Assembly (NCBI RefSeq): GCF_003572205.1
Contig: NZ_QXNY01000005.1
Span: 124,001 to 188,000 of the forward strand
Origin: Algihabitans albus
GTDB taxonomy: Bacteria; Pseudomonadota; Alphaproteobacteria; Kiloniellales; DSM-21159
Direction: 5' to 3'
DNA length: 64,000 nucleotides
Each line of letters starts with the position of its first letter. Within the stretch, counting starts at the first letter, position 1. Of this stretch, positions 41,727 to 43,233 are shown one piece after another. A program made the translations under genes and the position numbers. The notes under the pieces are model-generated. The model saw nothing but the letters and a program-made list of their open reading frames with translations. It was not told the origin of the DNA and made no database searches.

Positions 41727-42230
41727 TTACGCGGCGGTCATGAACGGCAGGTCGGTGGCGCCGGGCTTTGCCCCGGCGGCGGTCAGTAGCGCGTGAATCT
41801 GGCCGCGATGATGCGTTTGATGGTTGAAGACGTGGGTTGCGAGCAGCCACAGCGGTTGGCTGAACTCGCGGTCGGCCGACCGCGAGTGCCAGGTCAGTTG
41901 GCCGGTCAGGTCGCCGTCGCCCTGCCGATCCGCCCAGGTGGAGATCACGTCGTCGGTTTCCTTGCGGGCTGTCTTGAAGCTCGGCCAGTCCTCGGCTTCC
42001 GAAACCGACTCGGTCAGAGGTTTGACCGGTTTCGGAAGACCGGCGAGGCGGCTCATCCACATCCGGTCTGCCCAGAGAAGATGGTTGAAGGTCCCGAAGA
42101 TGGATCCGAAGAAGGCCCCGCGATCGGCGCGCCGCTCTGCTTCGTCGAGGCCGTCCGCGGCCGTCACCAGATTGTCGTTCTGCCATCTGTTGTAGCGCGC
42201 CAGTGTGCGCAGATACTCGGCGGAGATCAT
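41727..42230 (-). CDS. DinB/YfiT family metal-dependent protein
   Basis: A 167-aa four-helix-bundle protein (not DNA polymerase IV despite the DinB name). The metal-ligand histidines are in FNHLLWADRMW (near residue 48) and HVFNHQTHHRGQIHALL (near residues 132-146). The family includes thiol-dependent transferases using mycothiol or bacillithiol, or other S-transferases. The partner thiol here is unknown. It shares the strand with the ArsI-like gene but is 107 bases away. Confidence 0.85.
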   Translation of the reverse strand: MISAEYLRTLARYNRWQNDNLVTAADGLDEAERRADRGAFFGSIFGTFNHLLWADRMWMSRLAGLPKPVKPLTESVSEAEDWPSFKTARKETDDVISTWADRQGDGDLTGQLTWHSRSADREFSQPLWLLATHVFNHQTHHRGQIHALLTAAGAKPGATDLPFMTAA

Positions 42231-42337: not shown

Positions 42338-42772
42338 TCAAGAACAACAGGCGTCGGCCTCGCCAGGACGGCTAGCCGGGCTGGGCGTCAAGCTGTCCTC
42401 ACCGTAGATCGGCTCTTCGCCGTGGGTCAGAAAGGTCTCCCAGCGGATGTCCTGCGGGTCGAACACCCAAGCCTTGTCGGAGCGGTGATAGCAGCAGCTG
42501 GCTGGTCCCTCGGCGATCAGCTTTTCGCCGGCCTTGCGCAGCCGGTCGGAGATATCCGCTAATTCGGCAGGGGTCTCGACCTGAATCCCGAGGTGAAAGT
42601 CACCGGGGGTCTCGCAGCGCTTGGAGACCGAGAAGTTCACCTTGGGGTCTTCCAACTGCCACTTCGCGTAGTCGTCCTTCAGCAGCGTCGGCTCTGCTCC
42701 GAACAGCCGGCTGTAGAAAGCCACGGAGGCGGAAATGTCGGCGACCGACAGGCCGATATGAATGCGCTTCAT
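42338..42772 (-). CDS. ArsI/CadI-like vicinal-oxygen-chelate protein
   Basis: A 144-aa glyoxalase/VOC-fold protein. It has HIGLSVADISASVAFYSRLFG at the start, ligand candidates His5, His60 (DFHLGIQV) and Glu in RWETFL, and the adjacent cysteines in ASCCYHRSDKAWVFDP, which match the thiol pair used by ArsI, the C-As lyase that demethylates MAs(III) and degrades roxarsone-type compounds. CadI-type proteins share this pattern. A second CC pair is at the C-terminus (ACCS). It is the second gene of an operon with the DUF1127 protein behind a clear operator. No arsR, arsC or acr3 is in the window. Confidence 0.75.
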   Translation of the reverse strand: MKRIHIGLSVADISASVAFYSRLFGAEPTLLKDDYAKWQLEDPKVNFSVSKRCETPGDFHLGIQVETPAELADISDRLRKAGEKLIAEGPASCCYHRSDKAWVFDPQDIRWETFLTHGEEPIYGEDSLTPSPASRPGEADACCS

Positions 42773-42793
42773 GGGACTCTTGCTCCTCGAACG

Positions 42794-43087
42794 TCAAGCG
42801 GCGCAGCAGGTTGCATCGCAGGCTGATAGGGCTGGAACCGGTCGTCGCGGCGGCAGCAGGACGACGACGTCGGCCCTGCGGCTGGAGGGCTGGGCCGCCG
42901 CAGTGTGCTGATCTTCACCGCGCTGCACCAGACCGGCGGCAACGGCGTCAATCTGTTCCGGCCCAATCCCGATGTCCTTCAGAAGGCTAGGGTCCAACGC
43001 GCGGAGTTCTTGCGCGGTTGCCGAGGTGAGGGCTGTGCGCCTGAGAAATCGTAGGCTGTCGAGGAGCCAAGCTGGCCAGCGGATCAT
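42794..43087 (-). CDS. DUF1127-domain protein with cysteine-containing C-terminus
   Basis: A 97-aa protein. The central ELRALDPSLLKDIGIGPEQID (about 27-47) is the short DUF1127 motif. An Arg/Leu-rich tail follows, ending CDATCCAA, with three cysteines. DUF1127 proteins usually act as small RNA- or regulator-associated or phosphate/carbon-related factors; none is clearly metal-linked. The ATG at 43087 has an AAAGGAG site that abuts an inverted-repeat operator. The next gene, ArsI-like, starts 21 bases later. Confidence 0.7.
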   Translation of the reverse strand: MIRWPAWLLDSLRFLRRTALTSATAQELRALDPSLLKDIGIGPEQIDAVAAGLVQRGEDQHTAAAQPSSRRADVVVLLPPRRPVPALSACDATCCAA

Positions 43088-43098
43088 GTCTCACTCCT

Positions 43099-43130
43099 TT
43101 ATTTTGATAAATATCAAAACATCAAAATAA
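43099..43130 (-). promoter_or_regulatory. Inverted-repeat operator of the DUF1127-ArsI-like operon
   Basis: A 32-base element: outer perfect arms TTATTTTGAT (43099-43108) and ATCAAAATAA (43121-43130) around a 12-base spacer; inner perfect arms TTTTGAT / ATCAAAA (43102-43108 and 43113-43119). It ends next to the Shine-Dalgarno of the DUF1127 gene, so a bound repressor would block transcription or translation. ArsR/SmtB-type sites often have ATCAA-TTGAT half-sites, so an ArsR-family repressor is the first guess. The AT-rich run stands out from the surrounding GC-rich DNA. Confidence 0.7.
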
Positions 43131-43137
43131 GAGCGGG

Positions 43138-43233
43138 TCAATCCGACTTTCGATAGACCTTGACGTGAGCTTCGAGCTGGGTGCGGCGAACTGCTTCGAG
43201 ATGATGCCGCGCGTCGAGGCTGTTGCTTGCCAT
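43138..43233 (-). CDS. Possible 31-residue small ORF
   Basis: An ATG at 43233 opens a 31-codon frame (MASNSLDARHHLEAVRRTQ then LEAHVKVYRKSD) that stops 50 bases before the DUF1127 start on the same strand. No Shine-Dalgarno is convincing and I do not recognise it. It could be the remains of a longer gene, a leader, or chance. Confidence 0.2.
   Translation of the reverse strand: MASNSLDARHHLEAVRRTQLEAHVKVYRKSD

Follow-up and report, generated by a model that had tools for sequence, protein, structure and literature searches.

The described systems closest to the locus reported here are the arsR-arsI(-arsP) operons, with which it shares an ArsI enzyme, an ArsR-type operator over the promoter and an alphaproteobacterial setting. 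In contrast to those operons, there is neither arsR nor arsP beside arsI, a gene of the DUF1127 family sits in the place of arsR, and the repressor is expected to act in trans. The lone arsI of one family member (genome G009, locus L026) likewise lies outside an arsR operon behind the same kind of operator, with arsR-arsP at another locus (L213), but has no DUF1127 gene. The solved ArsI C-As lyases (PDB 5c4p and 5v0f, which we take to be from Thermomonospora curvata, and others) resemble the enzyme encoded here in the VOC fold, the vicinal cysteines, the metal-ligand positions, and the lysine and tryptophan that come after the cysteine pair. They differ from it in having a glutamine in place of His5, and the protein described here has a C-terminal extension with CC at its end.

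DUF1127 proteins are small and form a very large family, and what they do is just beginning to emerge. CcaF1 and the short DUF1127 proteins of Agrobacterium have the same core as the protein described here; the former is reported to bind RNA and the latter PhoR, and the excerpts of that report which describe them contain no link to arsenic (PMC12501420). Other proteins share both the DUF1127 core and terminal cysteines with it, but they are encoded divergently from LysR genes and no arsenic gene is seen near them. An operon that links one DUF1127 protein with a defined chemical stress would offer direct access to the function of DUF1127. We consider it rather probable that the present locus is a two-gene operon for methylarsenite detoxification, regulated in trans, into which a DUF1127 paralogue with a thiol tail was recruited. 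As a departure from the known arsenic-resistance operons it is modest but real.

Gene order and the ArsI-like enzyme

Analysis of the open reading frames in the window (the whole 64-kb stretch of DNA that was analysed) confirmed the arrangement given in the preliminary description. Two minus-strand genes lie behind an inverted-repeat site, first a DUF1127 gene whose product ends in CDATCCAA and then an ArsI-like gene of the VOC superfamily (Table 1). The second gene begins 21 nt past the stop codon of the first, and because of this spacing and the shared strand the two are presumed to be co-transcribed. Immediately downstream of the operon and on the same strand, a DinB-family protein (PF05163, 80.1 bits) is encoded at 41727-42230 of the window.

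Table 1. Features of the DUF1127-arsI locus (positions in the window)
Feature	Positions	Strand	Remarks
DUF1127 gene, 97 aa, in the place of arsR	42794-43087	-	Product ends ...SACDATCCAA; helical core, low-confidence tail
ArsI-like gene, VOC superfamily, 144 aa, very probable C-As lyase	42338-42772	-	H5/H60/E112, C93-C94, K100, W102, terminal CC
Putative operator region, 32 bp	43099-43130		Three half-sites (outer 10-bp and nested 8-bp arms)
Core site, 22 bp	43100-43121		21.9 bits with the ArsR-operator motif
-35-like hexamer, TTGACC	43136-43141	-	From sequence; TTGACA similarly placed in genus mate G002
AAGGAG, likely ribosome-binding site	43094-43099	-	From sequence

The VOC protein scored 113.7 bits with the NCBIfam ArsI/CadI model (NF041414), 2.3 bits under the curated cut-off of 116, which is a naming threshold and not a defining residue. 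The two genus mates scored 115.3 (G002, under the cut-off) and 119.1 (G001, over it), and because the line thus runs through the genus, the shortfall was not taken as a failure. A sequence search of the PDB returned eight chains (best E 2.4e-19) named glyoxalase or dioxygenase by their depositors; six of the eight are entries that the structure search listed as C-As lyase. In that search, made by Foldseek with an AlphaFold model of mean pLDDT 84, ranks 1 to 15 were all C-As lyase entries (E 4.3e-13 to 5.3e-10).

Alignment with other ArsI proteins showed that H5, H60, E112, C93, C94, K100 and W102 are invariant among 12 aligned sequences. H5, H60 and E112, presumably the metal-ligand triad of the ArsI C-As lyase, align to Q, H and E of 5d4f, and H5 is present in 84 of the 94 other ArsI proteins of at least 110 aa. 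There are two cysteine sites, C93-C94-Y95 and the C-terminal C142-C143-S144. The first aligns with the CC of 5d4f and 5c4p, and we take it to be the vicinal pair that binds trivalent organoarsenical. The 15 best structure matches, all of them C-As lyases, and the alignment of the cysteine pair and metal ligands make it very probable that the VOC protein is an ArsI C-As lyase, as had been proposed for it; it is predicted to demethylate MAs(III).

Distribution of the gene pair

The gene-order survey comprised 100 ArsI loci, five from the genus (three genomes, two of them represented twice) and 95 others, of which 91 had at least 250 bp upstream and could be assessed (L068, L143, L179 and L197 were dropped). 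Seven weak matches with 28-31% identity (L035-L041), two fragments in G287 and five matches at E 1e-28 to 1e-26 were left out of this count. The upstream neighbour was arsR in 84 of the 91 non-genus loci, on the same strand in 82 and divergent in two; seven had neither arrangement. Across the order and the class, arsI usually follows arsR directly. A DUF1127 gene stood upstream of arsI at none of the 91, and at the arsI locus of all three genus genomes, none of which had an adjacent arsR there.

A profile of the three DUF1127 proteins gave full-length matches solely in the three genus genomes among 61 genomes of the order, and solely in the present genome (G000) and G001 among 398 genomes of the phylum, a sample that does not include G002. 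Three more matches in the phylum (E 1e-6 to 1e-5) were partial and had internal stops, and a search of plasmids gave no match at E 1e-3. The idea of a wide DUF1127-arsI association was rejected on these grounds: the partnership proposed in the preliminary description holds for all three genomes of the genus but for none of the assessable loci beyond it. Conservation among close relatives was borne out, with the gene pair present in both genus mates and the layout of the site recurring in G002. The locus is a genuine variant of the arsR-arsI operon, seen up to now in this genus alone, in which the DUF1127 gene appears to have taken the position of arsR. At L199:1501-2106 (G313, a genome 63% complete) a shortened arsI is followed by a DUF1127-like ORF; considered as a further pair, it was taken to be a broken locus.

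This distribution bears on a somewhat unlikely alternative, in which the DUF1127 protein is a passenger: a stress-related paralogue that came to lie behind the arsR promoter upon the loss of arsR, and is co-expressed without any arsenic function. Such hitch-hiking is possible because the pair is known in just three genomes, all of one genus, and terminal cysteines are also found in LysR-linked DUF1127 proteins with no arsenic genes in view. However, the pair has been kept in all three of those genomes, with the same CCAA end on proteins whose bodies are down to 34-46% identity.

The operator and its candidate repressor

The inverted repeat had been described as perfect 10-bp outer arms around a nested repeat of 7 bp. 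The outer arms are as described (43099-43108 and 43121-43130, 100% complementary, 12-nt gap), but the nested arms are 8 nt long (43102-43109 and 43112-43119, 2-nt gap). On the operon (minus) strand the region reads TTATTTTGAT-GTTTTGATATTT-ATCAAAATAA, and along the operon there are three half-sites, two direct copies of TTTTGAT that are 8 bp apart and one inverted ATCAAAA.

An ArsR-operator motif, in the form of a 22-bp palindrome, was learned from 78 distinct arsR upstream regions with the genus excluded and with 12 random starts, and its consensus was TATTTCGATAATTATCGAAATA. The ATCAA/TTGAT halves by which the repeat had been likened to ArsR sites fit it, but the 78 promoters have TATTTCGAT-N4-ATCGAAATA as their consensus. 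The site at 43100 scored 21.9 bits, the second-best place in the window 5.3, and when the 120-bp promoter was shuffled 5000 times by mononucleotide, the score of the site was never reached. Among the training promoters, 47 of the 78 scored at least as high as the operator, and five that were under 12 bits probably lack the motif (L034, L183, L184, L191 and L194). The motif ends at the arsR start codon in 52 of the 78, and TTGAC is present within 110 bp before that codon in 58.

The motif also preceded the arsI operon of both genus mates, at 21.9 bits in G002 and 29.2 bits in G001, and the layout of three half-sites, including the extra upstream one, is common to the present genome and G002. 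An ATG in G001 lies at the position of the arsR start in relatives and is in frame with DUF1127, which hints that the DUF1127 gene was put behind the old arsR promoter. As far as sequence can tell, these data support a putative operator of the ArsR type, at which repressor binding and release by arsenicals are predicted.

The motif is not confined to ars genes, as strong sites were found in G009 and G002 without a recognised ars neighbour. The former (contig C238, L204:266-287; 29.8 bits) is on a short stretch and precedes an ORF that by inspection resembles riboflavin biosynthesis; the latter (contig C273, L203:1500-1521) scored 21.7 bits. Besides the known arsI and arsR-arsP sites, a looser operator pattern searched in five genomes matched at several places where no ars gene was recognised; two of these matches were strong. 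The exact operator motif was found at three places in the present genome with up to three mismatches allowed, this site being the sole exact match, and the backwards control gave five places. The second arsR of G001, encoded with arsP, had a site of merely 9.3 bits. At the arsR-arsI loci L183, L184 and L191 the arsR promoter bears a different motif, AACTAGTTATATA, in place of the common one. ArsRM of Brevundimonas, an alphaproteobacterial regulator, is reported in excerpts of one paper on a different palindrome, CTTTATATAAAG (PMC10190100).

The view that the regulator is not encoded beside the operon and acts from elsewhere was upheld: there is no arsR next to arsI at any of the three genus loci, an arsR-arsC-acr3 operon is found elsewhere in the present genome, and regulation is probably in trans. 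The present genome has 14 HTH_5 matches, and the one run against NCBIfam was assigned to the metalloregulator type (NF033788) with 67.7 bits. The metalloregulator-type arsR heads the arsR-arsC-acr3 operon, which is on contig C4 (arsR at C4:806738). The acr3 product scored 400.5 bits, above the cut-off; Pfam classes the arsC-like protein as LMWPc, and it falls below the NCBIfam arsC cut-offs. This ArsR carries a DCC motif, and its promoter contains a site with the same framework as the arsI site, weaker (14.8 bits) and different in sequence. It is the best candidate for, and the likely source of, the trans repressor of the arsI operon, and we put the assignment no higher because the site of a second HTH regulator gene (L012) also reaches 14.4 bits. 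The ArsP_1 permease gene of this genome (C1:178652) is divergent from a LysR-like gene, named by inspection, and in its surroundings the ArsR motif reaches only 7.8 bits.

That arsI lies outside an arsR operon yet has retained the operator points to a probable rewiring to a trans repressor. In G009, sites of 29.1 and 29.0 bits were found at the lone arsI and at the separate arsR-arsP. This arsI is the sole one of the seven loci without upstream arsR to have a strong site within 500 bp, the others reaching at most 9.3 bits. Five arsI genes without adjacent arsR, L159, L164 and L172 (three genomes of one genus) and L148 and L161 (two copies in G346), had no ArsR-type site within 500 bp upstream, the best score being 3.4 bits.

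In the explanation we favour, an ArsR-family repressor made elsewhere, most likely from the arsR-arsC-acr3 operon, would occupy the operator over the promoter and would leave it once its own cysteines have bound trivalent arsenicals. Transcription would then give ArsI together with a DUF1127 protein whose core is helical and whose flexible tail carries two cysteines at its end. ArsI would take methylarsenite on the C93-C94 pair and demethylate it to As(III), which ACR3 would export.

The DUF1127 protein and its possible role

The first gene of the operon matched Pfam DUF1127 (PF06568) at 25.7 bits, and the three genus proteins scored 25.7, 24.2 and 24.9, against a cut-off of 23.3. Ten of its 97 residues are arginine, which is over the 5.5% of a standard protein and below the 14% average given for DUF1127 proteins in the excerpted text of PMC12501420. 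The model predicts three helices and no strands, with residues 1-60 helical (block-mean pLDDT 83-95) and the remainder at 51-59, and Foldseek found no match for it in the PDB at E ≤ 0.001. This protein shares 46% and 34% identity with its counterparts in the two genus mates; the CCAA end is unchanged in all three, with synonymous codon differences, and no third cysteine is conserved among them.

The predicted fold is relevant to a very improbable reading in which the DUF1127 protein is itself the regulator, replacing ArsR and acting on the operator or on the mRNA. The gene does occupy the arsR place of relatives, and the DUF1127 protein CcaF1 binds RNA according to the portion of the literature cited above (PMC12501420), but the operator that was retained is of the ArsR type, an ArsR is encoded elsewhere, and the three-helix fold without strands had no structural match at the threshold used.

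Comparison with other family members showed that the cysteine-rich end cannot be read as a sign specific to arsenic, as the preliminary description had done, and the tail was rejected as an arsenic signature: LysR-linked DUF1127 proteins also end in cysteine, and a terminal CC is found in 73 of the 95 other ArsI proteins. A cysteine within the last five residues was present in 10 of 44 other DUF1127 ORFs (those with a locus from profile matches, not a random draw, and with L093 left out). All ten genes are divergent from a LysR gene, as judged with a LysR profile seeded from the neighbours of terminal-Cys DUF1127 genes, one of which Pfam confirms. The proteins end in one or two cysteines (L104, L101, L074, L090, L088, L094, L100, L076, L078 and L082), their LysR neighbours are presumably GcvA-like, and no arsenic gene was seen within the 5-10 kb read around them. 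The remaining 34 ORFs included six with a divergent LysR match (one weak) and three with a cysteine further in and without LysR. In Brucella, DUF1127 genes are known to be under LysR control, as stated in an extract of PMC12595884.

The arsI-linked DUF1127 profile had a LysR-linked terminal-Cys paralogue as its second-best match in all three genus genomes, and therefore recruitment of the arsI-linked gene from such a paralogue is likely. To complete the detoxification-operon reading, the DUF1127 gene, probably a paralogue of these LysR-linked genes, would have moved into the place that arsR has in relatives. Its product would most likely be a small, co-induced regulator that binds RNA or protein and adjusts cell physiology in arsenical stress, and its vicinal cysteines would bind trivalent arsenicals or become oxidised.

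The cysteines also allow a distinctly unlikely reading, that the DUF1127 protein is a small arsenical-binding buffer or chaperone that passes As(III) or MAs(III) to ArsI or ACR3, comparable to ArsD, which hands As(III) to ArsA. Vicinal cysteines end both the DUF1127 protein and ArsI (C142-C143) and are found in the DCC of the ArsR of the same genome. However, a terminal CC is widespread among ArsI proteins, cysteine ends occur in DUF1127 proteins away from arsenic, and a third cysteine is not conserved in the genus.

A broader idea, which we regard as rather doubtful, is that those DUF1127 proteins which end in a pair of cysteines are small regulators that sense thiol chemistry. The flexible tail would bind trivalent arsenicals in the operon described here, or sense redox in the LysR-linked proteins, and would switch an RNA- or protein-binding helical core. 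The operon would then join the detoxification of arsenicals with a response at the post-transcriptional or protein level, DUF1127 standing in the gene position of the transcriptional sensor ArsR. The recurring terminal-Cys form would offer a handle on the family through arsenical binding, CC mutants and induction. A literature search for DUF1127 together with arsenic found no paper in the collection covered, in which 30 papers mention DUF1127.

Another DUF1127 gene of the present genome is divergent from an ArsR-type HTH gene (L132:1515-2506; G000:C11:45514-46505). The palindrome TAGTTCGATCATGACCGAACTA is located at the start of this HTH gene and scores 14.4 bits by the ArsR motif, and a similar HTH/DUF1127 pair is present on contig C183 of G002.
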